This document shows positions 34,686 through 50,197 of a stretch of DNA of 64,000 nucleotides, in pieces. How positions within the stretch are numbered: position 1 is the stretch's first letter; every line of letters begins with the position of its first letter. The stretch spans positions 372,001 to 436,000 of the forward strand of contig NZ_VAUV01000001.1 in the NCBI RefSeq assembly GCF_005780165.1, in the 5' to 3' direction. Made by a program: the position numbers and the translations under genes. The notes under the pieces were generated by a model that was not told where the DNA came from, ran no database searches, and was given only the letters and a program-made list of their open reading frames with translations. The DNA comes from Phragmitibacter flavus. Its GTDB lineage: Bacteria; Verrucomicrobiota; Verrucomicrobiia; Verrucomicrobiales; Verrucomicrobiaceae.

Positions 34686-37013
34686 TCACTCCACCAGCTC
34701 CAAACTGATCTCCACCGCTTTCGACGTCGGAGTCAGGCTTTCGTCAGCGATGCTGTCAATCGGCACCAGCACATTTGCCTCGGGAAAATAAGCCGCCGCC
34801 GTCCCCCGCGGAGTGTCATACGGAATCGCCAGGAACCCATTTGCCCGGCGCTCCTCGCCTTTCCAATGCCCCACGATGTTCACCGGTTTCACCGGACCAA
34901 TGCCACGCTCACGCATGTCTTCAGGATTCAGGAAAACGACGCGCCGTTCATTGCCGATACCGCGATACCGGTCGTTCAATCCGTAAATCGTCGTGTTGAA
35001 CTGGTCATGACTGCGCAACGTCTGCAGCAGCAAGCGCCCCGGTGCTGATTGATGCACCGTCAACGGATTGGCAAAAAACTCCGCCTTGCCCGATGGCGTG
35101 TCAAACCAACCTTCACGCGCGCAGTTCGGCAAATAAAACCCGCCTGACACGCGCACCCGCTGGTTAAAATCTTCAAACCCTGGAATCACCGCCTCAATTT
35201 TGTCGCGCACCAGATCATAATTCGCCGCCCATTCGAGCCACGGCACCGCACTCCTGCCCGCCAGAGTCGCCGCCGCCATTCCACACACAATCGCTGTCTC
35301 ACTGCGCAACTGATTGCCCGCCGGCTTCAACGCCCCCTGACTCTTGTGCACCACGCCCATTGAATCCTCCACGGTCACAAACTGTTCCGTGCCACGCTGC
35401 ACATCGACCTCAGTCCGACCCAGACACGGCAAAATCAATGCGCGCCGACCATGAATCAGGTGACTCCGGTTCAGCTTCGTCGCGATGTGCACCGTCAACC
35501 GGCACTGCCGCAAAGCCGTCGCCGTGAACTCCGTGTCCGGCGTGGCCGAAAGAAAGTTGCCGCCCAGCGCAATGAACACCTTGCCCGCTTCGGCATGCAT
35601 CGCCTTGATCGCCGCCACCACATCATAACCATGTTTGCGCGGCGATTTGAATTGGAAAACCTCATCCAGCTTGTCGTGGAAGGAATCCGCCATCTTCTCG
35701 AAAATCCCCATCGTGCGATCCCCTTGCACGTTGCTGTGACCACGCACCGGACACAATCCCGCTCCAGGCCGACCCACCGCGCCCAACAGCAAATGCACAT
35801 GCGCGATTTCCTGGATCGATGCCACCGCATTCTTATGCTGTGTCAGCCCCATTGCCCAACAAGTGATCAGCTTTTTTTCCCGTGAAGCCGACTGCTCCGC
35901 GAGCTTGATGATCTCCGCGCGCTCGATCCCCGAATACTCCTCAATCTGCTCCCAGGTCGTGGCCCTCACCGCTTCCAAATAGGCCGCACTACCCGCCGTC
36001 TTCTCCTCCAAAAACTTGCGATCCAGCACCGTTTCCGACCGTTCGTCCTCGAGCTCCAGCAAGGCCTTGGCGATCCCGCGAAACAGCGCCATGTCCCCAT
36101 TCAGCTTCACCTGCAGATACTGACTGCTCAACGGCGTGCTGATGCCCAGCATCCCCGACACCTCCTGCGGATGTTTGAACCCCAGCAAGCCCGGCTCCTT
36201 CAACGGATTCACCGCAATCACCTTCGCCCCATGCCGCACCGCCATCTGCAAACTGCTCAACATGCGAGGATGATTCGTCCCCGGATTCTGCCCCGCCACA
36301 ATGATCGTCTCCGCCGTCTCAATGTCCCGCAACGTCACGCTCCCCTTGCCAATCCCCACATTCGCCTTCAGCGCAGCACCACTCGATTCGTGACACATGT
36401 TCGAACAATCCGGCAGGTTGTTCGTCCCGAACTGACGCACAAAAAGCTGATACACAAACGCCGCCTCATTGCTCGCCCGACCGCTCGTATAAAAAATCGC
36501 ATCATCTACCTTCGGCAACGCGTTCAACTCCTCCGCCACAATCTGGAACGCCTCATCCCAGTCAATCGCCCGATACCGATCCGCCCCCGCTTCCAACAAC
36601 ATCGGTTCCACCAAACGCCCCTGCTGCTCCAGCCAGTAATCCGACTCCGCAGCCAGTTCCGCGACCGTGTGCTGCTTGAAAAATGCCGGCGTCGCCCGCC
36701 GCGTGGTCGCCTCAGCCGCGATCGCTTTCGCTCCGTTTTCACAAAACTCCGTCTTCGCTCGATGATCATCCGGATCCGGCCAGGCGCAGGAAGGGCAGTC
36801 AAACCCGTCCTTCTGGTTGATCGTCAACATCGCCTGGGTGCCCCGCAACAACCCCGCCTGACCCATCACGTGATTCATCGAAGACAGCACCGCCGGCAGA
36901 CCAGCCGCTGCATGCGATGGATGCCCCAGGTGAATTCCGGTCAATTCCTCCGGCGGCTGGGCGGCAGGAAGTGACTTCTTACTATCTTCAGGAGTTTGGA
37001 CTTTGGAAGGCAT
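34686..37013 (-). CDS. Molybdopterin oxidoreductase, FdhF/YdeP type
   Basis: 775 residues from the ATG at 37013 (MPSKVQTP). The YdeP group is related to formate dehydrogenase H but lacks the N-terminal ferredoxin-like Cys motif for the 4Fe-4S cluster; here only CPSCAWPDPDDH is seen near residue 88. The molybdenum-cofactor domains are clear: IFYTSGRASNEAAFVYQLF, LPDCSNMCHESSGAALK (Cys probably the Mo ligand region), VAGQNPGTNHPRML and a C-terminal dinucleotide-binding domain around LLQTLRSHDQFNTTIYGLNDR. YdeP is linked to acid resistance in E. coli; the reaction is not established. It is divergent from the YncE-like gene across a large hairpin. Confidence 0.88.
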   Translation of the reverse strand: MPSKVQTPEDSKKSLPAAQPPEELTGIHLGHPSHAAAGLPAVLSSMNHVMGQAGLLRGTQAMLTINQKDGFDCPSCAWPDPDDHRAKTEFCENGAKAIAAEATTRRATPAFFKQHTVAELAAESDYWLEQQGRLVEPMLLEAGADRYRAIDWDEAFQIVAEELNALPKVDDAIFYTSGRASNEAAFVYQLFVRQFGTNNLPDCSNMCHESSGAALKANVGIGKGSVTLRDIETAETIIVAGQNPGTNHPRMLSSLQMAVRHGAKVIAVNPLKEPGLLGFKHPQEVSGMLGISTPLSSQYLQVKLNGDMALFRGIAKALLELEDERSETVLDRKFLEEKTAGSAAYLEAVRATTWEQIEEYSGIERAEIIKLAEQSASREKKLITCWAMGLTQHKNAVASIQEIAHVHLLLGAVGRPGAGLCPVRGHSNVQGDRTMGIFEKMADSFHDKLDEVFQFKSPRKHGYDVVAAIKAMHAEAGKVFIALGGNFLSATPDTEFTATALRQCRLTVHIATKLNRSHLIHGRRALILPCLGRTEVDVQRGTEQFVTVEDSMGVVHKSQGALKPAGNQLRSETAIVCGMAAATLAGRSAVPWLEWAANYDLVRDKIEAVIPGFEDFNQRVRVSGGFYLPNCAREGWFDTPSGKAEFFANPLTVHQSAPGRLLLQTLRSHDQFNTTIYGLNDRYRGIGNERRVVFLNPEDMRERGIGPVKPVNIVGHWKGEERRANGFLAIPYDTPRGTAAAYFPEANVLVPIDSIADESLTPTSKAVEISLELVE

Positions 37014-37076
37014 GGCGAGCCCATATTCTCGCAGATTTCCCCTGATCAGGCAATGTTCATCAACTCTAATCCAACA

Positions 37077-37136
37077 GTAGAAGGTCCGTCCCGGGCCTTT
37101 CGAATGATGGAGCAAGGCCCGGGACGGACCTTCTAC
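37077..37136. repeat. Large perfect hairpin element (23-bp arms)
   Basis: Arms 37077-37099 and 37114-37136 are exact reverse complements of 23 bases (GTAGAAGGTCCGTCCCGGGC at the left end), with a 14-nt loop. CAAC before and GTTG after extend the symmetry. It lies in the divergent intergenic region between the YdeP-like and YncE-like genes. Confidence 0.8.
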
Positions 37137-37187
37137 TTTGTTGAAAGCGTCGCCGCCCAGCCCCCGTTCTCTTGCTCCCATACTTCC

Positions 37188-38213
37188 ATGCAATCATCCT
37201 CCCTCCTTCGTCGGGCCGCCACTCTCGCGGTCATCGCCAGTTTTAGCTTGAGCTTCAGTCTCTCCCAAGCCGCTGATCTCAGCAAAGGGCTCATCCTTTG
37301 CACCAACAAAGGCGATCAAACCCTCTCGCTTATTGACTCCGAGACCAACAAGGAAATCGTCGCCATTCCCGAAGAAGGTATCACCGGCCACGAAGTCATC
37401 GCCAGCAAAGACGGCAAACTCGCCTTTGTCCCCATCTTCGGCGACTCCGGCGTCGGCAAACCCGGCACCGACGGACAGCACATCCAGGTCATCGACCTCG
37501 CCCAGAAGAAAATCGTCCACACCATCGACCTTGGTCGAGGCCTTCGTCCCCACTGCCCCATCATCCACCCCATCACCGGCGACCTCTATGTCACCACCGA
37601 AAACGAAAACTCCATCACCATCGTTGATGGCAAAACCTTCAAGGTGAAAGGCAGCATCACCACCGGTCAAGATCAGTCCCACATGCTCATCATCAGCAAC
37701 GACGGCAAACGCGGTTACACCTCCAATGTCGGACCCGGCACCGTCTCCGTGCTTGACCTCGAGAAAAACGAACTCATCAAAATCATCCCGATCTCCAAAA
37801 TCTGTCAGCGCATCGCCGTCAGCAACGACGACAAGTTCATCTTCACCTCCGACCAAACCATGCCCCAACTGGTCGTCATCGACGCCACAACGCTGGAAAT
37901 CGTCAAACGCATCGACCTCGGCGATTTCGGCTACGGCGCCGCCCCCACTCCCGACGGCAAATCCCTCGTCCTTTCCCTCATCAGCGGCGATCGCGTCGGC
38001 CTCATCGACCTTGAAAAGATGGAGCTCACCAAAACCGTCTCCGTCCCCCGTTCCCCGCAAGCCGTCATCGTCCGTCCCGACGGCAAAAAGGCGTATGTCT
38101 CCTGTGATCGCAGCGCCCAAGTCGCCGTCATCGACCTCGAAACGTTTAAAGTCGACACGCTCATCCAAGCCGGCAAAACCGCCGACGGCCTCGCCTGGGC
38201 CCCCGCGCAATAA
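37188..38213 (+). CDS. YncE-family beta-propeller protein, exported
   Basis: 341 residues from the ATG at 37188. Signal peptide residues 1-29 (LAVIASFSLSFSLSQAA). The rest is a seven-bladed propeller built of about 40-residue YVTN-type repeats, e.g. GLILCTNKGDQTLSLIDSET, GDLYVTTENENSITIVDGKT, KRGYTSNVGPGTVSVLDLEK and KKAYVSCDRSAQVAVIDLET. YncE of E. coli binds DNA and is periplasmic, but most family members have no assigned ligand. It is the only plus-strand gene between the molybdoenzyme and the giant protein operon and has its own terminator. Confidence 0.85.
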   Translation: MQSSSLLRRAATLAVIASFSLSFSLSQAADLSKGLILCTNKGDQTLSLIDSETNKEIVAIPEEGITGHEVIASKDGKLAFVPIFGDSGVGKPGTDGQHIQVIDLAQKKIVHTIDLGRGLRPHCPIIHPITGDLYVTTENENSITIVDGKTFKVKGSITTGQDQSHMLIISNDGKRGYTSNVGPGTVSVLDLEKNELIKIIPISKICQRIAVSNDDKFIFTSDQTMPQLVVIDATTLEIVKRIDLGDFGYGAAPTPDGKSLVLSLISGDRVGLIDLEKMELTKTVSVPRSPQAVIVRPDGKKAYVSCDRSAQVAVIDLETFKVDTLIQAGKTADGLAWAPAQ

Positions 38214-38231: not shown

Positions 38232-38258
38232 GTTTTGCCGAAGTCACATCGGCAAAAC
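38232..38258 (+). terminator. Hairpin terminator between convergent genes
   Basis: GTTTTGCCGA (38232-38241) and TCGGCAAAAC (38249-38258) form a perfect 10-bp stem with a 7-nt loop, followed by CTCACTTTTC. It lies 18 nt after the YncE-like stop and immediately before the stop of the convergent giant gene, so it may serve both. Confidence 0.65.
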
Positions 38259-38259
38259 C

Positions 38260-41200
38260 TCACTTTTCAACAGTTCCACGTCTCCTTCTCCATTCCATTC
38301 CCCCGAGCACACTCACTCCAAGCAAGGTTCCCCACAGCCCGAACCAGCGCCATTCTTCCCACGGCTCCACCACATCCAGCTCCAGTAGGGCGTGATCCTT
38401 CAGCTTGCTGAAGTGATAAACTTTACCCTCCAGCGGAACCTCAATCCGCAGCGAAACCCGACCCACCGGCTTTAATTGCGAACTCGGTGGCAATGCCATC
38501 ACCATCTCCCCCACGGCCGGTTTATCATCCATCGCATCTGCCACCATCTGGGGATCCATTGGCGCTGGTGCTGGTGCTGCGGGTGCTGCCGGAGCACTGA
38601 ATGGATCCATCGGTGTCGCAGCCACGACCCCGCCACCCGATAGCTGCTCCTCCCAAGCTTTGTTCACATCATTCAACATGGCAGCTCGCTGATTGCTCCT
38701 CGCTGTATCAAAGAACCCTGCTCGTTTCGATTCAATCTGCTCAAGTCCCCGACGTGCCGCGCCATTCAACGGATCCACTTTCAACGCCTCTGTAAACGCC
38801 TTTTCCGCATTGTCAAAATCGCCAAGATTCGCATAAGAATACCCCAATTTTAGCGACTTGGTCAGCTCTGCGATTTTGCCCTGATGTGCTGAGTCCAATT
38901 CCGTCACCGGCTTTGCCGTTGCACGTGCGTTGTTTGATGCCTGCACCTGCATCTGCTGCTGCGCAGGTGCTGGCTTCTGCCCCTTCGACTTCTTGTTCGG
39001 CTCCACGGGCTCCGGCTTCGCCAAAAAATCCTCTTTCAACCGCGTGGTGTCATTCACCGCAACTCCCATCTCTGGCTCCATGGGCTTCGCTGCTGCAGAC
39101 GCCCCCCGATTGTCCTTCCACTCCGAATCCTTGCCCTCCCGCGTCGCACTTTTCACCTGATCCATTCTGAAATTCAGATTTTCCACCGAGATCCTGTTCT
39201 CCGTCAAAATCGCCTGCTGCTCCCCCAACTGCTGCTGCACTGCACCACGAAGTTGCTCCACCTTCGACTCAACCCCCTTCCTCTCCCTCGGCTTGCTTTC
39301 ATAAGCACCCCTCGACGACACCACCTCTCCATACTCCATCAACTTCGCAATCGCCTTCTGCGCATTGCTCAGCGCCATCTTCTTGTCCATTTCCCCCATC
39401 TCATCGGACTTCATCACCCGGTTAAAGCGCGAGACCTCAGAAAGCAAACTTTGCTGTTTCTCCAGCGCCTGACCTTCCTCGCCGATCTCATCCATGTTTC
39501 CATCAAATCGTTTTGGCTCAAACCCCGGCGGCACCCACACATTCCACAGGGTGCGCTCCGCTGACAATCCCACCAACTGAGGATCATCCAACCTCAAACC
39601 TTTTCCGGGCCGATCCCCTCCTTTCCCTGGCAAACGGTAAACCAGCCGCACCTGCTGACTCGATTCGCCCGCCCGCATTTGAATCAATGGCACCAGATAC
39701 ACCCCGGCATCCTTCGATGAACGGTCTGCCCGCACCGCCTGCTCACCCACACTCACCTCCACCAGCTCTGCCCCCTCTGCCAGCTTCACCGGCAGGAATT
39801 GCAACGAGCGATTTGACAACGAATACACCACGGTATCCCAGCGATCCCCATTTGACCGCAAGGCACTGGTTATCTCCGCCAGTGTGATGATCGCCGCATT
39901 CCCCGCCGTGCTTTCCAACTGAGTAAAACTCACTCTCGGCCCATTCCCTGCGGCCAGACGAAAATCCTGCGGTCTCGACAAATCCCCTGGCGCAAACGGC
40001 AACGAACCAGCCGCCGTCGACACCGCCCCGCCTTCATCCAAGCGCATCTCCCGCGTCCCCGCATTGTCCACGACCAGAAAGCGCCGCACCTGCCGCGCCC
40101 CCTCCACCTGCACCACTGGCACCGCCACCTCGCCATTTAGTGGCAGCTCCATCTCCATTTCAAAATCCACACGCTGCAGAAACTCCCTCTGCAACCTCAC
40201 CTCATAAACCCGCATTCCCGCCTCAATTCGCGTCTGCACATCCCGCACCCCCGTTCCCGCCACACGCGCCTCCGGCAACTGCTCCGGCAAACGCACCACC
40301 ACCTCCGCCAGTGCTCCCTGCTCCACCTCCACTCCAATCCGCTGCCTCAATTCCAAACCCTGCTCACCCGCCCTGGCCAGCAACACCGCATCCGCCACAA
40401 ACTTCGCCGCCTGCCGAGTCAACATCACCGAGCCCGACCAATCTGACCGCTCGCTCACCAATGCATGTTTCACCACCAGTGGCTCCACCACCTCCAGCGC
40501 CGACTTCACCGATGTGACATCCACCTCACGAAGCTCTGCCGACTTTTCAAAACTCAGCTTCACCTCGTCGGCCACATGGGCCGCAATCAATGCCGTCGTT
40601 TCCACCTTGGCAAAACCCACCGGCACCAGCGCCTCAAGTTTCCACTCCGCAGCCGCTTCCGATACCGACTTCGCCACATGAACCAAAAGCCGTGCCTCTG
40701 ACTCCACCGCATCATCCAACAACACTTCAAGCCCACCCTCGGACCGATGCCACGAAATGATCCTCGCGCCCGATACTGCCTGCACCTCATACCCGGGCGG
40801 CACCCGCACCTTCACCGCACTCAACTTCGCCCCACCCGGCGACAACGTCATCGCTGCCATCATCTCCGCCTTCTGTGCACTCAGCTGATAAACCACCTCC
40901 ATCTGCGCCTTGCTCCGATCCACCGGCAGCAACACCTCATACTGCGGCAGCTGTTCATCCCTCCAGCGGAATGTTCCCGCGTCATCACGGCCCCCCTTCG
41001 CCGACTCCACCCGCTCCATTCCCAAATTGGCTCCTGGTTTCACCATTCTCTTCTCCGACCCCACCATGCTCCATTCGCCCGTCTGCCGTGCCGCCACCCC
41101 GGTCGCCTTCGGGACGGTTCTCATCCCCAGATCCGCCACTTCACGCGAGGCGCTTACCAATACCTTCGCCCAATTTGTCACCGCCTGAGGAAAATCCACC

Positions 41201-42162
41201 TCGACCCACTGCCGCTCCCCTTCCTTGCGCAACGTCGTCACCCCCGGTGGCACCGACTCCACAAGCTCCACCTGCAAATCCCCGGCCAGTTCCACCGCCA
41301 CCTGACGCCGTTCCGTCCCCTCAAAATCAAATTCCACGCTCGAAGTCACCCGCTCCATCCCAGGAAACACCCACACCATGTTCTCAGCCTTCGCTTGCGC
41401 AGGTGCCACCTCCGACCCCACCACCTGTGCCAACGGCTGCCGGATCACTCTCACCCTGTTCGCCGACCCCATCGCTGCCGACACGCTCGACCCCGTCTCG
41501 TCTCTCACCACTGTTCCCCTGGAACCAATGACCGGAACATCCAGTCGCGGCACCCCTTCGCCTGATCCAGACTTCACCCGGATCATCGTCGCTGGAACTT
41601 CCGGCAACAACAACCTCACCTCCTCCCAACCCTCCAAAAGCGGCACCGTAAAACGCCACTCCACCACGTGCTCACCCGCCTTCTCAATCAACACCGCAGC
41701 CCCATCCTCCGTCATCACCGCGGGCACGCCATCCACCATGAAAACCGCCGCCGCCGCCGCCACATCCACCTCATCCTGCTTGATCGTTGCCGCGGCCCTA
41801 AGGTTGCCCAATTCCAGCTTCGCCCACGGAGCCCCGCGCGTCAGCACCTCCATTCGCGCCACCATCTCAAGCCCTTGCGCTGTGATCTGTGCGTCATACA
41901 AAATCCCCTTCACCACCGCCTCAGGTGCTGCTTTCGACTCCGCTTCATCTTCCTTCACCGATGCCGGACGCCGGCTCTCCTTCGCCAGCTCCCACAACCT
42001 TTGGAAATCCGCATAATCCACATAAAACCGCTGTGCCTTCGACTCATCAAACTTTTCCCCCACCTCATAAGGCACCACCACCGTATGCGCCGCCGGATCT
42101 CGAACATCCGCCGCCATTGACCCCAAGGGAGCCATCACCAACAGCCAGGCAAAACTCTTCAT
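38260..42162 (-). CDS. Giant exported protein C of a three-gene paralogous operon (TPR, C-terminal anchor)
   Basis: 1300 residues. A short signal peptide (residues 1-18, FAWLLVMAPLGSMA) is followed by the N-terminal motif TVVVPYEVGEKFDESKAQRF and FQRLW that also opens the two upstream proteins. Most of the chain is beta-rich and of unknown family (GWEEVRLLLPEVPATMI). Residues about 735-900 contain the shared segment with VYSLSNRSLQFLPVKLAEGAE and VRLVYRLPG. Toward the C-terminus are a coiled-coil (QLRGAVQQQLGEQQAILTEN), TPR-type helices at about 1090-1160 (YSYANLGDFDNAEKAFTEAL) and one membrane helix near residue 1277 with an Arg-rich end. Only 5 nt separate its start from the preceding stop. 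Function unknown. Confidence 0.72.
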   Translation of the reverse strand: MKSFAWLLVMAPLGSMAADVRDPAAHTVVVPYEVGEKFDESKAQRFYVDYADFQRLWELAKESRRPASVKEDEAESKAAPEAVVKGILYDAQITAQGLEMVARMEVLTRGAPWAKLELGNLRAAATIKQDEVDVAAAAAVFMVDGVPAVMTEDGAAVLIEKAGEHVVEWRFTVPLLEGWEEVRLLLPEVPATMIRVKSGSGEGVPRLDVPVIGSRGTVVRDETGSSVSAAMGSANRVRVIRQPLAQVVGSEVAPAQAKAENMVWVFPGMERVTSSVEFDFEGTERRQVAVELAGDLQVELVESVPPGVTTLRKEGERQWVEVDFPQAVTNWAKVLVSASREVADLGMRTVPKATGVAARQTGEWSMVGSEKRMVKPGANLGMERVESAKGGRDDAGTFRWRDEQLPQYEVLLPVDRSKAQMEVVYQLSAQKAEMMAAMTLSPGGAKLSAVKVRVPPGYEVQAVSGARIISWHRSEGGLEVLLDDAVESEARLLVHVAKSVSEAAAEWKLEALVPVGFAKVETTALIAAHVADEVKLSFEKSAELREVDVTSVKSALEVVEPLVVKHALVSERSDWSGSVMLTRQAAKFVADAVLLARAGEQGLELRQRIGVEVEQGALAEVVVRLPEQLPEARVAGTGVRDVQTRIEAGMRVYEVRLQREFLQRVDFEMEMELPLNGEVAVPVVQVEGARQVRRFLVVDNAGTREMRLDEGGAVSTAAGSLPFAPGDLSRPQDFRLAAGNGPRVSFTQLESTAGNAAIITLAEITSALRSNGDRWDTVVYSLSNRSLQFLPVKLAEGAELVEVSVGEQAVRADRSSKDAGVYLVPLIQMRAGESSQQVRLVYRLPGKGGDRPGKGLRLDDPQLVGLSAERTLWNVWVPPGFEPKRFDGNMDEIGEEGQALEKQQSLLSEVSRFNRVMKSDEMGEMDKKMALSNAQKAIAKLMEYGEVVSSRGAYESKPRERKGVESKVEQLRGAVQQQLGEQQAILTENRISVENLNFRMDQVKSATREGKDSEWKDNRGASAAAKPMEPEMGVAVNDTTRLKEDFLAKPEPVEPNKKSKGQKPAPAQQQMQVQASNNARATAKPVTELDSAHQGKIAELTKSLKLGYSYANLGDFDNAEKAFTEALKVDPLNGAARRGLEQIESKRAGFFDTARSNQRAAMLNDVNKAWEEQLSGGGVVAATPMDPFSAPAAPAAPAPAPMDPQMVADAMDDKPAVGEMVMALPPSSQLKPVGRVSLRIEVPLEGKVYHFSKLKDHALLELDVVEPWEEWRWFGLWGTLLGVSVLGGMEWRRRRGTVEK

Positions 42163-42167
42163 ACACG

Positions 42168-45100
42168 TTACTCCTTCACAGCAGCAGGCTCATTCAAATT
42201 CATCAGCACCAGCCCCTCGACCCACCACGCCAGCCCCCACAAAAACCGCACCAATCCCGCCACCAGCCAACCTGCCAGCACCGCATTCAACACCGCCCAC
42301 CACGACACCGACAACAGCAGCGGCACGCAAGTCAACAATATCACCGCCGCCAAAGTCATCGCCCAAGGCGACCTGCGACCCAGCGCCCAAAACGCTCCGG
42401 CTCCCACCACCATCCACAAACAAGCCCCGACCATCTGTCTCCTCCACGACACATAAGAAAACTCCAGCACCTCAGGTTTCATCGCCCCCTCAAACTCAAA
42501 CCTCCGACCCGCCACCGGCAGATCCAGCTCCACCGGCAGCAAACCTGCTTTTTCCACTGGAGCGACCATCGTCACCATTCGCAGCGCCCCCACATAAGCA
42601 TCCACTGCATCCACATTCGGCTGGGTATTTCTTACCATCAATTGCGATGTCGACGGCGAAAAAACTGCCGACGCGCCTTCGGGAAAAGTAATGCCCCCAC
42701 GCTTCAGCACATCCTCGGCATTGGCATCGGCACCTAGGAAATCCGGTGCCACCGTAAACACTTTTGAATACATCTCTTCGCCCACTTCCGACAACGGCAC
42801 CACCACCACCGCAAACTTTTCCACTCGATATTTCATATTCGCCAACTCCGTCACATACCGCAACGCCTCATCCAAAGGCACATCCTTCAATTCCAGACTT
42901 ATCGTCGCCGTCGATGGCACCCCATTCAGTCGCAGCACAAAATTCACGCCCTTCCGCGCCGGATCACGCTCCTCCGAGTCATGCTCACGACTCTTTACCC
43001 TCAGCACCTCAATCGCCTTATCCATCGGCACCCCGCTCAACTTCAACTCCGGCAAAATGATGTTCTTCATCTTGCTCGAATAATAGGAGGAATCATCAAT
43101 CGTGCTCCCGTAGGCAATCCCCGCATCCTCCTCTTTGAATTTGGCCTCCTCCTGCACCCGCAGCGCTGAATCCCATTGATACAGCCATTGCTGCACACCA
43201 TCCAACTCCGCCTTCCGGTTCGTCATCGTCAACCGCCCCGACCTGGGTTCATATTCCGCCGTCGCCCCTTCGTTAAAAGCAAAGCCCAAACCCTTCAATA
43301 CATCGATTGCTTGCGCCCCTTGGATCCCGGCAAACACCCCCGTCGACGGCACCCCATGCCACTCTGCTGTTCTCAACCTGCCCTCAATCTCCTCCAACGT
43401 CTTCACCACCACCATGCCCCCCTCGATCTCAAATCCTACACCAGCCAACTCGGTCACATACCTCAATGCTTCATCCATCGGAACCTCCCTCAAATCCAAG
43501 GTGATTTTGCCGCCCTTCCCCTTGACCGAATCGGACTCAATCACCCGCAATCCTTTTTTCGCGGGATCTCGCTCCTCGGCATCAAAATCCCGGCTCTTGA
43601 TCCGCAAAAACTCCAGTGCCTCCTCCAGGCTGGCATCCTTGAACTGCACCGACGGAAACAGCAACTGCCGTAATTTCGACTCCGCCCCACGATCAATTTC
43701 GTTTTCCACCCGATGCACCGGCATTCTGTCGGTAAGCTCCAGCACCCTGAGCGACTCCATATCCGTTTGCTTGACCGCACCTCCCCCCGCGACAAAATCC
43801 ACCGACTTGCTCGCCCAACCATTCCACAAACTCCGCGCTTCCTCCCCGCCCCTCACCAAGGACAAACTCGTCCGAGGCTCCCGATAACTAAAACCCTCTG
43901 GCGCATGCACCTGCCATGATGTCTTCAACACCGGCACAACCGCATCAAACACCGGCGGCCTGAATGCCTGCTTTCCTCGACTCGCCCACACGCCGCTCTG
44001 CGTCTGGTAGATCACCTTGATCACAACTCCGGATCCATCCCCTCTACCCGACAACGGCAACCGCACCTCGCCTTCACCCGCCGAGATCGGCTTCACCGGC
44101 TGCAAATCCACCATCGCACTCAACAAAGCCGCCCGATCAGGCAGACGCATGGCGAAGAATTGATCCCCGCTGTGTTTCACCCGCATCACCGCCTGATGCC
44201 GCGCCCCCCCATCAAGTCCCACGACGCTTTGCAGCTCCAACCGTGTCACCACCGCACTCGTCAACCGCGTGCTCTCATGCCTCGTCGCCGTCAACTTCAG
44301 CTCATGCTCTGACGCTCCAAATCCATAAACTGCCAGCACCCGGTGTCGCGCCGAATACCCCTCAACCGTCGGTGCCCGCAACGCATCCATCGGCTGCAAA
44401 CCCTTCGTCTCAAACGCCAGCTCCGTATCCGTGTTTGCCTCAATCACCCAACTCCCCGCAAACCGCCGGGCCTTCGGCATCGCCATCCTTGGCAGCGCCG
44501 CCTTTAAAACCTTCGCCTCCCCATCCCCCGACTCCACCGCCGGCAAGCTCACATGGAACCGCAAATTCTCCGCCCCCAGCAATTCCTTTCTTAGTGTCAG
44601 CGTCCAAACCCCGCTCTTCGCATCCAACCGCCGCTCACCAATCAATGGAGAATCCCACCTCACCAAACCCGACACCGCCTCGGGAAACTTCACCTCCACC
44701 ACACGCAATGGCGCACGCGAAACCGCCACCCTTACCTGACCCTCAATCTCCACCACCCGCGCCCTCGGCAATGCATAAGCCGTCACCATCGCATCCAACA
44801 ACGGCTCATGCCGGGCCATTGAAAGCTCCAGGCCAAACTCCCGCAAAGTGAACCACGCCATCTTCCCCCGCACCGGTGTCGTCCGCCCATCGCGTTCCTC
44901 CAATCCCGTCGTCTTCAGCGGCGACACGCGCCACCCTTCATCAAAATCCACCGCCACATACCCCGCCACTCGCGACGCCTCCTTCACCTCCACATTCCCC
45001 AATTCCAACACTGCCGAACCGCCCGCCAAATTTGGTAATTCCGGCCGCGTCCGCAAAGTGTAAACCGTCTTTGCACCCCGCGTCAGAGCCTTCGGCCACA

Positions 45101-46568
45101 TGATCTCAATGCCCACTTGCCCCACCCGTTTCCACTGCGGCTTCAGTTCACACGCCGTCTCCATTCCAATGAACTTTTCCCCTATCGGCAACGTCAGCAA
45201 CGTTCTTCCCACCCCGCCTTCCTCGCCATGAAACGTCAATGTTCTTGTCAACGCCACCTCATGCTGACCCAGCTTCGCCAGCAAATCCGCATCCACCGAA
45301 AACCGGTCCCCCAACCTCCGCACCTTCGCCATCACTTTCTCCGGCATCACTGCAAATCTTATCCCCATCACCGTCGGCTCCGCCATCACCGCCGGCTTCG
45401 CTGCAGCCATCGCTCGATCATGCTCAGTCGGCACAAACAATTCTCCATCTTCTTCATCCCAACCCGAACTCTCCACCCCCTCTTGCAGCACCAGCATCAA
45501 CCTGAACCAACTCTGACCCGCCCCTCGCAATCTCGGCACATCCATCGCAAAATCTGCACGCCCACCCACTCCAACCGGCAGCGATTTACTCAATACGAAA
45601 TCTAAACCATAAAGCTTCGATCCGCCCACTTTCCGCACTTCCACGACACCGCCCTTCTGCACCCACACAATCTCCGAGCTTCCCGAGGCACGAACCTGCA
45701 ACACCTGAGCCTCCGGATCAGGCAGATCAAACACCAGCATGTCAGCCGGCGACCACGCATTCATGAGGAAAACTGTCTGCACCTTGGTCACCACCTCCGT
45801 CGTGCTCACCTCCGCCACCGCCAAGCTTCTTGTCACCACCTTCTCTTCATCTGCCTCGGTCAATTTGCCCTCCCGCCACTTCAACAGGATTGTCGAATTC
45901 TCGCCGCGTCCCTGTTCACCCGGCACCACCCGCTTCGTGCCATCCAACTCCGTCACAATCTCGTTCCACAAATCCACCCCTTCTCCCGGCGCTACCAGCA
46001 ATGAACCAGGATTGCCAAAAAACGGCACCTCCACCACCGGAAATCCAAGTTTCCTCTCCACCGGCAACACCATCACCATCTGCACCACATGCCTGCCCCT
46101 CCCCCGCACCGCGACCACCCGCTCCCCCCCGTCCTTTGCCGCCATCGTTGCGCCCACCCCACCAAACGACTGCAACAAAACCGAATCCGGCCAACCCGGC
46201 AAAACCACACTCGACCAGCCCTCCTTCAAAGCACTCACCGTCAACTCCACCTCAAGCGCCAAACTCTCCGCCCCTGCCGTCGGAGCCGCTTTCATCTTCA
46301 CTGACTCCAGCACCGCATCCACCGGTGGTTTTTCTTCCTCCTCCTCACTCACCACTCCCGCATCACGAACCAGCCGTTCATAAGACTCCCGATCCAGCAG
46401 CACCGCATTCGGATGCGCCTTCAAAACGGTTTCCAAATCCTCCGACGGCACCCACACCTCACGCCGCTCCGGCTTCTTCGCGACCGCCCCCTCCTCCGCC
46501 CACAGCCCTCCCGCCAGCGCCAGCCAACCCGCCCCAGCCAACAAACTGATTCTCGTCAAAGTCTTCAT
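42168..46568 (-). CDS. Giant exported protein B with two secretin-N/STN-like repeats and C-terminal membrane segments
   Basis: 1466 residues. Signal peptide about 1-24 (LLAGAGWLALAGGLWA). The N-terminal motif VWVPSEDLETVLKAHPNAVL matches the neighbouring giants. A long beta-rich part follows, including GWSSVVLPGWPDSVLL and the shared segment with RVKHSGDQFFAMRLPDRAAL. Two similar units of STN/secretin N-domain type lie near 1020-1055 (ITLDLREVPMDEALRYVTEL) and 1215-1250 (ISLELKDVPLDEALRYVTEL), each preceded by a conserved SRD/EHDxEERDPA stretch. No secretin barrel follows; instead four or five hydrophobic helices (about 1375-1460) anchor the C-terminus. Located 29 nt after protein A and 5 nt before protein C. 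Function unknown. Confidence 0.72.
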   Translation of the reverse strand: MKTLTRISLLAGAGWLALAGGLWAEEGAVAKKPERREVWVPSEDLETVLKAHPNAVLLDRESYERLVRDAGVVSEEEEEKPPVDAVLESVKMKAAPTAGAESLALEVELTVSALKEGWSSVVLPGWPDSVLLQSFGGVGATMAAKDGGERVVAVRGRGRHVVQMVMVLPVERKLGFPVVEVPFFGNPGSLLVAPGEGVDLWNEIVTELDGTKRVVPGEQGRGENSTILLKWREGKLTEADEEKVVTRSLAVAEVSTTEVVTKVQTVFLMNAWSPADMLVFDLPDPEAQVLQVRASGSSEIVWVQKGGVVEVRKVGGSKLYGLDFVLSKSLPVGVGGRADFAMDVPRLRGAGQSWFRLMLVLQEGVESSGWDEEDGELFVPTEHDRAMAAAKPAVMAEPTVMGIRFAVMPEKVMAKVRRLGDRFSVDADLLAKLGQHEVALTRTLTFHGEEGGVGRTLLTLPIGEKFIGMETACELKPQWKRVGQVGIEIMWPKALTRGAKTVYTLRTRPELPNLAGGSAVLELGNVEVKEASRVAGYVAVDFDEGWRVSPLKTTGLEERDGRTTPVRGKMAWFTLREFGLELSMARHEPLLDAMVTAYALPRARVVEIEGQVRVAVSRAPLRVVEVKFPEAVSGLVRWDSPLIGERRLDAKSGVWTLTLRKELLGAENLRFHVSLPAVESGDGEAKVLKAALPRMAMPKARRFAGSWVIEANTDTELAFETKGLQPMDALRAPTVEGYSARHRVLAVYGFGASEHELKLTATRHESTRLTSAVVTRLELQSVVGLDGGARHQAVMRVKHSGDQFFAMRLPDRAALLSAMVDLQPVKPISAGEGEVRLPLSGRGDGSGVVIKVIYQTQSGVWASRGKQAFRPPVFDAVVPVLKTSWQVHAPEGFSYREPRTSLSLVRGGEEARSLWNGWASKSVDFVAGGGAVKQTDMESLRVLELTDRMPVHRVENEIDRGAESKLRQLLFPSVQFKDASLEEALEFLRIKSRDFDAEERDPAKKGLRVIESDSVKGKGGKITLDLREVPMDEALRYVTELAGVGFEIEGGMVVVKTLEEIEGRLRTAEWHGVPSTGVFAGIQGAQAIDVLKGLGFAFNEGATAEYEPRSGRLTMTNRKAELDGVQQWLYQWDSALRVQEEAKFKEEDAGIAYGSTIDDSSYYSSKMKNIILPELKLSGVPMDKAIEVLRVKSREHDSEERDPARKGVNFVLRLNGVPSTATISLELKDVPLDEALRYVTELANMKYRVEKFAVVVVPLSEVGEEMYSKVFTVAPDFLGADANAEDVLKRGGITFPEGASAVFSPSTSQLMVRNTQPNVDAVDAYVGALRMVTMVAPVEKAGLLPVELDLPVAGRRFEFEGAMKPEVLEFSYVSWRRQMVGACLWMVVGAGAFWALGRRSPWAMTLAAVILLTCVPLLLSVSWWAVLNAVLAGWLVAGLVRFLWGLAWWVEGLVLMNLNEPAAVKE

Positions 46569-46597
46569 AACAAAACCCCGCTAAAAACCCCGTCACG

Positions 46598-49500
46598 TCA
46601 CTTCACTTCCTTGGACGCTTCCTCCTTCGACTCCACCATGGGTGCCGAAGCCACCACCACCCCAGCAGCTTGCGTTCGACTTGATCGCGACCACCGAACG
46701 AGTAGCCACAGAAATGCCAGTCCCCCCATCAGCAGCGTCAACACCCCAACGATCCCCACCAAACTCGGCTCCCTTGATGCAAGAGCAATCATCCACGCCA
46801 GGCCCAAAAACAAAAACCCACCCGTAACCACCACCGCAGCCATTCCACTTCCCGCCAGCGCCCTGAACATCACCGGCACCCCCAGCGCCAGCCATAACCC
46901 TGTCACCGCCAGCAGCCCCAACAAACCCGCCTGCACCACCGCGCCATTCGCCGCCCCCACCATTCCCGTCAGCAAGACCGCCACCACTCCCCCCACGCAA
47001 ACGAACACGACCTTGCGCTGCAACGGCGACTTGATCAAGGCCACCCCACTTAGCAACACCACCAGGAACATCACGCCCTCATAAAAATACGACAGCTTCC
47101 TTGAGCGAAATCCCACCTCAATGGCATCCGGTGCTCCCAACCGATGCAATTTGAAATCCTGCCCCTGCGTCGGAACCCTGAAATCAAATGCCGCTTTCTG
47201 TTGCTCAGAAATCGCCGGAGCCGGTTGCCAGGCATCCGATGGCTGAATCAGCTGCGGACCAAAACTCGGAATCAATGAATCCAGCACCCGCCGCACCCGG
47301 CCCCATCCACGATCCCGCAAACTCTGCGTCATGGCACTTTCAAACCCCGTGTAATCCTGACGCTCCGGCAAAAACAACTGCGCATGCGACTCCATCACCA
47401 CCCCCACATTCGCCAGCTTAGGAGGCAGAATCGTGAACGTCCCCGACATCCCCATTTTCTCCCCCGGCTTCACACTGGGCATCTCATAGACCAGCCGCAC
47501 CGGCAAACTGCGGCTCGTTGACCCCGCACCCGCCGGCAGCCTCACGAGCAGATCATCCGACCCCTCACGCTTCATCGGCTGCTGCGTCGTTCCATCGACA
47601 AATACATCACTCACCAATCGCGCCCCTTTCGGCAGTTCCACCGCAAGAAACTGCTGCGCATTGTTCCGCACCCAATAAATCATCTCCGTCGTCTGCGCCC
47701 CATCCGTCGCCACCGCACTCGTCAGAATCGCGTGCGTCACCACCGCCTGCGGCACCGCAATGTAAGCATTGCGCGTCACCTCCAGCGCCAGCTTCACCGC
47801 CTGTGATCTGGACTTGAACGCCAGCAAAACCCCCGGCCTGCTGATCTGCCGATGCAACTCCGCTGGATCAATCTCCTCCAAATTTTCCACTTTATAATCG
47901 CGAATCTCCAACGCATCCTCCTTCACCACCGCCACCTGCGCCGTCTCCTGAAACGACCCCGGCACATGCACCGCGAGGAACTCCAGCGCCTTGCCCGATT
48001 CAGCCGGCAGGGGTTTCTCAACGCTCAACGACAACGAAAATTGATTCATGCGTTCGCTCCTCAAGATCACCTCCCAAAACGCAAACCCCTCCGCGCCTGG
48101 CAACTCCTTCTTCATGGCTTCAGACGCCTGATAATTCTTATCAATCTCCTTCACGCCCGGATCCACAAAACGAATGTCCCCCTCCACCGACTTGGGCACC
48201 GCCAGCACAAACCGGTCTGTGCCCGCATAAGCCACATCAAATGCCAGTGTCCACGAATGTCTCAGCGACTGCTCCCGCGCCTCCACCAACGTGAGCACCT
48301 CCACATTCACCTGCGGTTCCCGCGCCTTGAAACCCAATGTCCCTGCCGTCTTTATTTCATCCCGATATCGAAACGCCAGCGTCAATTCCGTCCCCGTGGA
48401 TACCGACAAACCCGAAGCTTCGACTTTTTGTGGTGATGGGATGAGCCCAGGTGGTCCCCCGAATGGATCTCCGTTCATTGACCGCGGCGCGGCGATGTCC
48501 AGAGACGACACATCATCCTGCCGCAAATCTCCCAACAACTTCGTGCTCACCTCCAAACTCGTCTGCACTGCCACGCCCACCTTTGCATCGTGTCGTGTCA
48601 CCTCCAGCGGCACCAATACCGGCACCGCCACCTCCTCTGTCGCTCCTCCTCTCACCGCCTGCGCCCGCAATGTAAACGCCACTTCTCCCAGCATCTGCTT
48701 GTCGAATTTTACCACCAAGGTCGATCCCTCCACCGCCCAGCGATCCGCCTTCATCCCCATCACCTCCCAGCCTGACCAGCCCGAAGGCAAATTCATCCGT
48801 GACTCGAAAATCCCCACCCGACGGATTGCATACTGAAACCTCGACTCCAACTTCATTGACTCCCTGTTCACCGTCAGCAGTGTCACACTGTCCACATCCA
48901 CCTGAGCCTTCGCCTCCGCCACGCTCAATGTCAGCTTCGCCGGAAGTTTCAAAAACCGGTAACCTCCCACCGCTGTCAAAGCGGATTCCTCCCCGCCGGT
49001 TTGTGTCTGCTGCACCATCCCCTCAGCCGCCTTTGGCGTTACATCCAGATGCCCTTCCGCCAGCACGCCGATCTCACCCCGCTGCTGCGCCGCCCCCTCC
49101 ACCCCGATCTCCGGCACCACCAGTTCCCCAGGCAGATTGGGCAGTGCTGCTTCCAAGACCAAATTGATTTTCCACGCATCCTTCACCGGCTCATTCGGCG
49201 TCAACGTCAGACGCTGACCTTCGCCCGCGGTCTCCAAATTCCAATCCTTCAATCCGGCCCCGGCCACACTCATTACCTGTTGCCCGGCAGGAACCGTTAA
49301 CACCACGTTCGGAACCGCCGCCCGCAGAATTCGCAGGTCCAGCTCCGATTTTGTCACCAAGGAACCCGCCTGCACCTCCGCCTTGATCTGATTCGACACC
49401 AGAATCAACGGTGCCAATGCCGTTTCCGCATCCCGCTTTTGCCAATGGATGTCAAACTTGCCCCCACTTCCGACAAAAAACGCCAGCTGGGTATCCGCTC

Positions 49501-50197
49501 CCTCTTCACGGGCGGTATAAGCCGCCGCCGGATTCACCTCAAACGCCCATCCATTGCCCGGCACCAGCATGTCAAAACGGCTCACCGTTGCCTTTGGCAA
49601 CACCAGGGTCACCCCCTGCTTCCCTGCCACGCGTTTGACCGCAGCATACATTTTCAGCTTTAACTCATAGCGACCTTTGTCTGGCAACAGCACGTCATAA
49701 CCTTCGGCTCCCGCCTTCAGAATCGCCTCGCCCGTATCCGCCTCTGCCAACCCCATCGGCGTGTTTCCACGGGTCAGCGGTAAACTCAGCCACCCCTTTT
49801 TGAAGGACTCTACCGTCACGACCGCATCAATCACCAAGGTCTCGCCATCCCTCCTGGCCCGGTATTCCGCTCGCGATACCACCCCATCCTGCGGCGGCTT
49901 CACCTCTTCCGTCACACGTTTCAAATTCAGCTCTCCCCACAACTCAAGAAACTCCTTGTAGGGCAGAAACACCCCTTTGCCGCCATCATTGAACACCTTC
50001 TCCAAGTCTTCATAAGGCACGTAAATCGTTCGTTCTCTTTCCCGCACCGGCCCCGGTAAAGCTTCAATCGCCGGAGCCGGAACAAGAACAGGAACCGGAG
50101 CCGGGACAGGAATCGGAGGGCCAGCCAAATCCTGGGCCACCATTCCGGCTGTAAAAACTGCAATACCAACTATTGGTGCAAAGATCGTGCGCATCAT
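46598..50197 (-). CDS. Giant exported protein A of a three-gene paralogous operon (multi-pass C-terminus)
   Basis: About 1199 residues from the ATG at 50197 (MMRTIFAPIVGIAVFTAG); an upstream frame to 50308 would disrupt the signal peptide. After cleavage near AQDLA there is a Pro-rich linker (IPVPAPVPVLVPAPA), then the common motif TIYVPYEDLEKVFNDGGKG and FLPYKEFLELWGEL. The chain continues as beta-rich sequence of unknown family with the shared block EMIYWVRNNAQQFLAVELPK and VRLVYEMPSVKPG. The last 150 residues hold about five membrane segments and a polar tail. Being first in the operon, it is probably expressed from the 243-nt region before it. No enzyme motif is seen; an envelope structural or sensory role is inference. 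Confidence 0.72.
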   Translation of the reverse strand: MMRTIFAPIVGIAVFTAGMVAQDLAGPPIPVPAPVPVLVPAPAIEALPGPVRERERTIYVPYEDLEKVFNDGGKGVFLPYKEFLELWGELNLKRVTEEVKPPQDGVVSRAEYRARRDGETLVIDAVVTVESFKKGWLSLPLTRGNTPMGLAEADTGEAILKAGAEGYDVLLPDKGRYELKLKMYAAVKRVAGKQGVTLVLPKATVSRFDMLVPGNGWAFEVNPAAAYTAREEGADTQLAFFVGSGGKFDIHWQKRDAETALAPLILVSNQIKAEVQAGSLVTKSELDLRILRAAVPNVVLTVPAGQQVMSVAGAGLKDWNLETAGEGQRLTLTPNEPVKDAWKINLVLEAALPNLPGELVVPEIGVEGAAQQRGEIGVLAEGHLDVTPKAAEGMVQQTQTGGEESALTAVGGYRFLKLPAKLTLSVAEAKAQVDVDSVTLLTVNRESMKLESRFQYAIRRVGIFESRMNLPSGWSGWEVMGMKADRWAVEGSTLVVKFDKQMLGEVAFTLRAQAVRGGATEEVAVPVLVPLEVTRHDAKVGVAVQTSLEVSTKLLGDLRQDDVSSLDIAAPRSMNGDPFGGPPGLIPSPQKVEASGLSVSTGTELTLAFRYRDEIKTAGTLGFKAREPQVNVEVLTLVEAREQSLRHSWTLAFDVAYAGTDRFVLAVPKSVEGDIRFVDPGVKEIDKNYQASEAMKKELPGAEGFAFWEVILRSERMNQFSLSLSVEKPLPAESGKALEFLAVHVPGSFQETAQVAVVKEDALEIRDYKVENLEEIDPAELHRQISRPGVLLAFKSRSQAVKLALEVTRNAYIAVPQAVVTHAILTSAVATDGAQTTEMIYWVRNNAQQFLAVELPKGARLVSDVFVDGTTQQPMKREGSDDLLVRLPAGAGSTSRSLPVRLVYEMPSVKPGEKMGMSGTFTILPPKLANVGVVMESHAQLFLPERQDYTGFESAMTQSLRDRGWGRVRRVLDSLIPSFGPQLIQPSDAWQPAPAISEQQKAAFDFRVPTQGQDFKLHRLGAPDAIEVGFRSRKLSYFYEGVMFLVVLLSGVALIKSPLQRKVVFVCVGGVVAVLLTGMVGAANGAVVQAGLLGLLAVTGLWLALGVPVMFRALAGSGMAAVVVTGGFLFLGLAWMIALASREPSLVGIVGVLTLLMGGLAFLWLLVRWSRSSRTQAAGVVVASAPMVESKEEASKEVK

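Follow-up and report, generated by a model that had tools for sequence, protein, structure and literature searches.

What kind of protein is encoded three times over in the giant genes that follow one another on the minus strand of a Phragmitibacter flavus contig, and with what would such proteins work? The window analyzed here is a stretch of 64,000 nucleotides (contig NZ_VAUV01000001.1, positions 372,001 to 436,000) from this verrucomicrobial bacterium, whose genome measures 5.9 Mb. An earlier note, made from the letters of the window, had described the three genes (here A, B and C; Table 1) as an operon of duplicated envelope proteins. Their sizes, strand and spacing (29 nt between A and B, 5 nt between B and C) are as it gave them, a signal-peptide-like segment starts each protein, and the motifs that it listed (VPYEDLE, VPSEDLE or VPYEV; GW...LPL; QFL.V.LP.GA.L) are all present. 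The C-terminal membrane helices that it ascribed to all three are found in A (several) and B (about four), but C has only one weak, sub-threshold segment.

Pairwise BLASTP already relates the three proteins (A-B 9e-10, A-C 1e-8, B-C 7e-5). When alignments of A, B and C were built from 20 Verrucomicrobiaceae loci and then compared as profiles, residues 60-942 of A aligned with residues 36-901 of B over 821 columns (E 4e-39) and with residues 29-888 of C over 833 columns (E 1e-41), while B and C aligned over 837 columns (E 6.5e-31). These E-values mean that the similarity far exceeds what composition would give, and by this comparison the three proteins are paralogues that have diverged strongly and have a colinear core of about 830 residues in common, as the common order of blocks in the earlier note had implied. 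Within the core an internal shift of about 170 residues can be seen (A443-778 against A275-593, E 8e-12). The A-B-C order is kept in the 20 Verrucomicrobiaceae loci and in Planctomycetota, where two metagenome-assembled genomes encode A followed by a fused B-C. The view that the core lies outside described families also stood up, as no match was obtained in Pfam, NCBIfam, PHROGs or PADLOC families or among PDB sequences. A phage or defence reading was discarded because PHROGs and PADLOC gave no match.

Outside the core, B and C hold clear pieces of a type IV pilus secretin, and the statement that no enzyme motif was recognised is not supported as it was written. By Pfam, B has two STN domains (STN 8.6e-9), and NF042912, the NCBIfam model of the Amuc_1098 family of type IV pilus secretins, matches B with E 5e-77 and C with E 2e-25, although as whole proteins they score 259.8 and 89.1 bits, below the curated cut-off of 750. 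A secretin hidden Markov model matches the two modules of the window B protein with E 1e-31 and 4e-47, and N0-N1 matches the PilQ chain 4ar0 with E 0.003. The secretin pore domain is missing from the window proteins, in which the B and C segments end by model position 444. In the window these pieces are 58-69% identical, and over N0 identity to the host secretin reaches 69%. N0-N1 modules ending at the pore domain occur in B at 17 of 21 loci, the window counted, and none of the A proteins carries a secretin piece. In Verrucomicrobiaceae, the secretin copies of B (N0-N1) and C (TPR) sit between core and membrane. The TPR piece is never found in both proteins (five loci in B only, six in C only), a suggestive pattern that comes from too few independent loci and was not used.

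A few B and C proteins hold short pore-domain or N1 peptides. The pore-domain peptides are 34-57 residues long and up to 61% identical (L105 C 1127-1183, L090 C 1207-1241, L087 B 1005-1054), and they occupy the linker site that N0-N1 or TPR modules take in other relatives. The host secretin itself lies in a complete Amuc_1098-1102 operon, and the genome has a close second copy and a more distant third (L107-L109). Three further host proteins of 577-671 residues (L125:1918-3933, plus strand; L126:2269-4200, plus strand; L127:1401-3134, minus strand) contain repeated N1-like and degenerate secretin-domain segments and are possible secretin relatives. Another, of 252 residues (L128:1236-1994, minus strand), begins in a TPR-like manner and also has an N0/STN-like domain, resembling a mini secretin arm.

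The history of the modules was followed in a tree of 47 N0-N1 sequences from which long branches were excluded. Nine changes between the states 'module' and 'secretin' are needed, at least five of them forced by well-supported branches. Uniting all modules in one clade lowers the log-likelihood by 264 and is rejected by the approximately unbiased (AU) test (p=7e-41), which eliminates a single ancient capture. Modules cluster with the secretin of their own host: module 2 of the window with support of 100/99, and those of G115/116 and G173/172 with 99/97 and 99/93. The six second modules, all at the same site in B, are likewise rejected as a clade (p=2e-13), although in five of those genomes the first modules do form one. 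The source secretin is of the type found in the complete Amuc_1098-1102 pilus operon of the host; transfer from the second secretin type, that of L109, was considered and dropped, with no module falling within that clade. Copies of the host pilus secretin were therefore acquired or converted more than once, and gene conversion, or repeated recapture, of the module is the simplest account. The DNA of module 2 of B is 68-72% identical to the host secretins over the aligned part, so that the last conversion, if any, was not recent. This renewal may be driven by selection for binding or by sequence similarity alone.

The three-gene arrangement that the earlier note described is real, but it is one of two layouts. 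Of 241 Verrucomicrobiota genomes sampled, 49 are found by the core profile, and matches to A occur in 26 of 68 Verrucomicrobiaceae genomes, covering all 11 genera; within the window's order the core is missing from genomes of small size, which are probably those of Akkermansia. In layout (i), two cores sit in one protein of about 2050-2500 residues, and clustered membrane helices lie between them. Directly upstream of this giant there is usually a gene whose product combines vWF_A, VWA and YfbK_C domains with a single membrane span and an N-terminus resembling that of an anti-sigma factor; this gene in turn lies behind one for an extracytoplasmic function (ECF) sigma factor. In layout (ii), A is accompanied by B and C, either split as in the window or fused. 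A YfbK_C/vWA gene is found directly upstream on the same strand in 31 of the 49 core-bearing genomes, and an ECF sigma gene precedes it in 18 of the 20 such loci that were read closely. That pair is adjacent in none of eight three-core genomes, the window's included (Fisher p 1e-4, from places entered by hand and genomes that are not phylogenetically independent), and in four of the eight YfbK_C proteins are absent altogether. The only YfbK_C protein of our host is encoded on another contig, and sigma/vWA genes are not found upstream of the window operon. Because the order of B-core, membrane cluster and C-core in the fused form matches that of the two-core giant, A appears to be the extra member.

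Pilus parts were also found in layout (i). A further set of 28 loci (20 of layout (i), five three-core and three two-core without partner) yielded 575 open reading frames in all frames, among which secretin segments occur in the vWA partner of six loci (L149, L154, L156, L164, L165 and L167) and in no other frame. The vWA partner of L043 is a seventh such case (NF042912, E 8e-53). The two-core giants of family f4 (L039:7963-15243, L040:6649-14256 and L041:7709-15160) have an N0-N1-like segment within or near a core, at a site unlike that of B. The membrane span of the vWA partner is pseudopilin-like in two loci, L045:3419-7192 (GspG, 6.7e-7) and L161:1476-5333 (0.0018), both scoring under the cut-off. 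The secretin and pseudopilin pieces of these partners indicate that parts of pilus or type II secretion machinery recur in the system by separate routes. By eye, a pseudopilin-like span was seen as well in the vWA partner L046:12539-16273, and a pseudopilin-like hydrophobic segment (FAVLAMLAAMLLPSFMRARMRSQ...) lies between the cores of the giant of G045 (L035:6714-14510, minus strand), where Pfam gives no support. A tblastn search of plasmids for a pilin-like stalk returned no match.

What the core might look like was approached with an AlphaFold2 model of A from 17 sequences. Its mean predicted local distance difference test (pLDDT) score is 72.7 and its predicted TM score (pTM) 0.41, which leaves the relative placement of domains uncertain and single domains less so. 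Residues of about 105-955 are beta throughout, mostly with a pLDDT of 80-92. In Foldseek and VIA-align, the first fold match is ribophorin I/Ost1, over two domains (E 9e-9, Z 13-14) and with a root-mean-square deviation (rmsd) of about 14, which we take to mean that the angle between domains would differ. Next come M1 aminopeptidase N-terminal domains (Z 12.6, rmsd 3.4 over about 160 residues, model residues 262-427), and the inter-alpha-inhibitor heavy chain is also among the Foldseek matches (E 2.5e-4). Rows for integrin (TM about 0.1, rmsd 27-30) and alpha-2-macroglobulin were set aside as spurious by TM and rmsd. Sequence comparison gives no ribophorin I/Ost1 match, either with Pfam in 17 members or between PDB sequences and the A profile, and there is no Pfam VIT match, the VIT likeness being a fold match only. 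The core is thus predicted to consist of about five tandem beta domains of M1-aminopeptidase-N-terminal, Ost1 or VIT type, of which only residues 260-430 are well tested. An HExxH motif is absent from A, B and C of the window and from A and B of every relative; it occurs in C of five relatives, at one place of one sublineage. M1 peptidase activity was ruled out for the window proteins, which lack both HExxH and a peptidase domain.

The architecture of A, B and C is well supported by their sequences, and anchoring of all three in the inner membrane is predicted. We tentatively favor the view, held at somewhat less than even confidence, that they are periplasmic scaffolds, anchored in the inner membrane, which dock on the pilus secretin or co-assemble with it. 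The beta chains would span the periplasm, with the modules derived from the secretin docking on its periplasmic rings or becoming part of them. Such docking would tether the secretin gate to the inner membrane, as PilQ is tethered by PilP and GspD by GspB, in those cases through unrelated domains. Tethering of secretins to the inner membrane through N0 is established elsewhere for PilP-PilQ (PMC3441751) and GspB-GspD (PMC9239104). The three-core form may derive from the commoner system of ECF sigma factor, anti-sigma-vWA sensor and two-core giant, in which the giant would be the partner of the sensor; the three-core form has no adjacent sigma/vWA pair and, in Verrucomicrobiaceae, carries the secretin pieces itself. 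Several observations weigh against this docking view. A secretin is found in 68 of 68 Verrucomicrobiaceae genomes and a match to A in only 26, so the pilus does not need the A-B-C operon. Five three-core loci outside Verrucomicrobiaceae, as well as most vWA partners, have no secretin piece, and docking through such pieces cannot therefore be the core function everywhere. The repeated conversion could be neutral, arising from sequence similarity alone, and the secretin-like segments in other host proteins may mean that these domains are promiscuous here. In addition, the structure model of the B modules (residues 880-1466, four sequences) is poor, with a pLDDT of 46, and was not used for the fold search.

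The main rival, which is compatible with a scaffold, holds that the core family serves primarily as the periplasmic counterpart of a vWA-bearing anti-sigma factor, and that the three-gene variant senses the state of envelope, pilus or surface through a sigma factor encoded elsewhere. The upstream YfbK_C/vWA genes and their ECF sigma genes speak for this trans-envelope sensor, as do the domains of the partner, in which an anti-sigma-like N-terminus is joined by one span to vWF_A-VWA-YfbK_C, and the fold match to inter-alpha-inhibitor, in whose heavy chains VIT-type and vWA domains occur together. Against it, the pair is never adjacent in the three-core genomes, half of which have no YfbK_C protein, and no sigma gene lies beside the window operon. 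We regard it as possible but on the unlikely side. A bolder combination would be an envelope machine of the PVC bacteria, as yet undescribed, in which the giant beta-chain proteins enter into mixed rings with the type IV pilus secretin by way of N-domain copies renewed from the host secretin gene. In related lineages the same proteins would link an ECF sigma factor to anti-sigma/vWA sensors that bear secretin and pilin parts, and so report the state of the pilus gate to the genome; this we offer as a speculative and rather unlikely possibility.

It is also conceivable, though improbable, that the secretin pieces are neutral passengers of a linker that tolerates inserts, into which the secretin gene keeps recombining while the cores have nothing to do with pili. 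Relatives do differ in the secretin pieces of this linker, short pore-domain peptides included (L105 C, L090 C and L087 B), and the host genome encodes other secretin-patchwork proteins. However, the pieces are mostly in-frame whole domains that end at the N1/pore boundary and remain 58-69% identical in the window, and they are found repeatedly in B (17 of 21 loci) and, independently, in the layout (i) vWA partner. The surface structure considered in the earlier note would call for an adhesin or an outer structural array of beta repeats. Adhesins typically have long runs of tandem beta domains, and integrin alpha chains appear among the Foldseek rows, but those matches are poor, no outer-membrane part or sorting signal is seen, and the signal peptides, C-terminal helices and helix cluster between the cores of fused forms fit inner-membrane anchoring, so that we give this idea very little credence. 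Least credible of all is the idea that the proteins are degenerate M1 peptidases, or that like Ost1/ribophorin I they assist a membrane enzyme that acts on exported proteins, as in glycosylation. Its appeal comes from the top fold matches, Ost1/ribophorin I and M1 N-terminal domains, yet a shared fold does not show function, HExxH is missing from every A and B and from the window C, no peptidase domain is present, and by eye no oligosaccharyltransferase was recognised beside the operon.

Table 1. Positions in the window of genes A, B and C, their parts and associated signals.
Feature	Position	Strand	Description
Gene A	46598..50197	-	1199 aa; signal peptide, one core, C-terminal membrane helices; without secretin piece
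Alternative TTG start of gene A	50308	-	Upstream of called start
Core of A, residues 60-942	47372..50020	-	Profile-profile; all-beta in AlphaFold model, internal repeats of about 170 aa
Membrane region of A, C-terminal, residues 1035-1170	46688..47095	-	
Gene B	42168..46568	-	1466 aa; besides signal peptide and core, has two N0-N1 modules of secretin type, a juxtamembrane element and about four membrane helices
Core of B, residues 36-901	43866..46463	-	Profile-profile
Secretin module 1 of B, residues 958-1129	43182..43697	-	N0-N1, diverged copy
Secretin module 2 of B, residues 1131-1329	42582..43178	-	N0-N1; clusters with type IV pilus secretins of host, support 100/99
Membrane helices of B, C-terminal, residues 1379-1450	42219..42434	-	
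Gene C	38260..42162	-	1300 aa; besides signal peptide and core, has a low-complexity linker that includes a secretin-type TPR, and a single weak membrane segment at the C-terminus
Core of C, residues 29-888	39499..42078	-	Profile-profile
Secretin-type TPR segment of C, residues 1089-1174	38641..38898	-	56% identical to residues 159-244 of host secretin
10-bp inverted repeat	38232..38258	.	At 3' end of C, between convergent genes; candidate shared terminator, consensus match only

A promoter and terminator scan of the region returned such sites at chance level. Convergent with gene C is a gene for a secreted protein that by eye has YVTN-type beta-propeller-like repeats (36996-38213, plus strand), and downstream of the operon lies one for a molybdopterin oxidoreductase that by eye is formate-dehydrogenase-like (34686-37193, minus strand).

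We rate the system as new: no description of the core family was found in the open-access full-text literature, and every comparison of the core with sequence families came back negative, although its building blocks would have known folds. About one in five sampled Verrucomicrobiota genomes, from some forty families, spend 6-12 kb on the core. The repeated swap of a domain of one protein for a copy from another gene of the same genome is unusual, and the renewal of the modules offers a direct and testable handle on function, the expected partner being the type IV pilus secretin. The PilQ secretin is the most abundant outer-membrane protein of Akkermansia (PMC4960237). Across the two layouts, a large beta scaffold comes to stand next to an anti-sigma/vWA sensor that is still uncharacterised, and this could open up a new class of envelope signaling.

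Comparison with known systems brings out what is shared and what is not. B has the N0-N1 (STN) part of the PilQ-type Amuc_1098 secretin (NF042912) twice and C part of its TPR, but A, B and C have no pore domain, consist mostly of an unrelated core, and are predicted to be anchored in the inner rather than the outer membrane. The core repeats resemble ribophorin I/Ost1, the M1 N-terminal domain and the VIT domain of inter-alpha-inhibitor in predicted fold, and differ from them in forming a longer array, with no catalytic domain and no sequence similarity detectable to solved structures. The role proposed for A, B and C, an inner-membrane hold on the secretin via N0, would be that of PilP in type IV pili (PMC3441751) and of GspB/OutB in type II secretion (PMC9239104), whose domains are unrelated, whereas the putative dock here is a copy of the N-domains of the secretin itself. 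The usual vWA/YfbK_C partner of the two-core giants recalls YfbK-type vWA proteins and the inner-membrane-tethered vWA 'force transducers' (PMC12204202), but it has an anti-sigma-like N-terminus and an upstream ECF sigma gene, and is absent from the window operon. The combination of VIT-like and vWA domains is shared with marine_srt_targ (TIGR03788, VIT plus vWA), which one vWA partner matches in part (E 6e-12, a score far below the cut-off), except that here the beta array and the vWA domain are on separate proteins.

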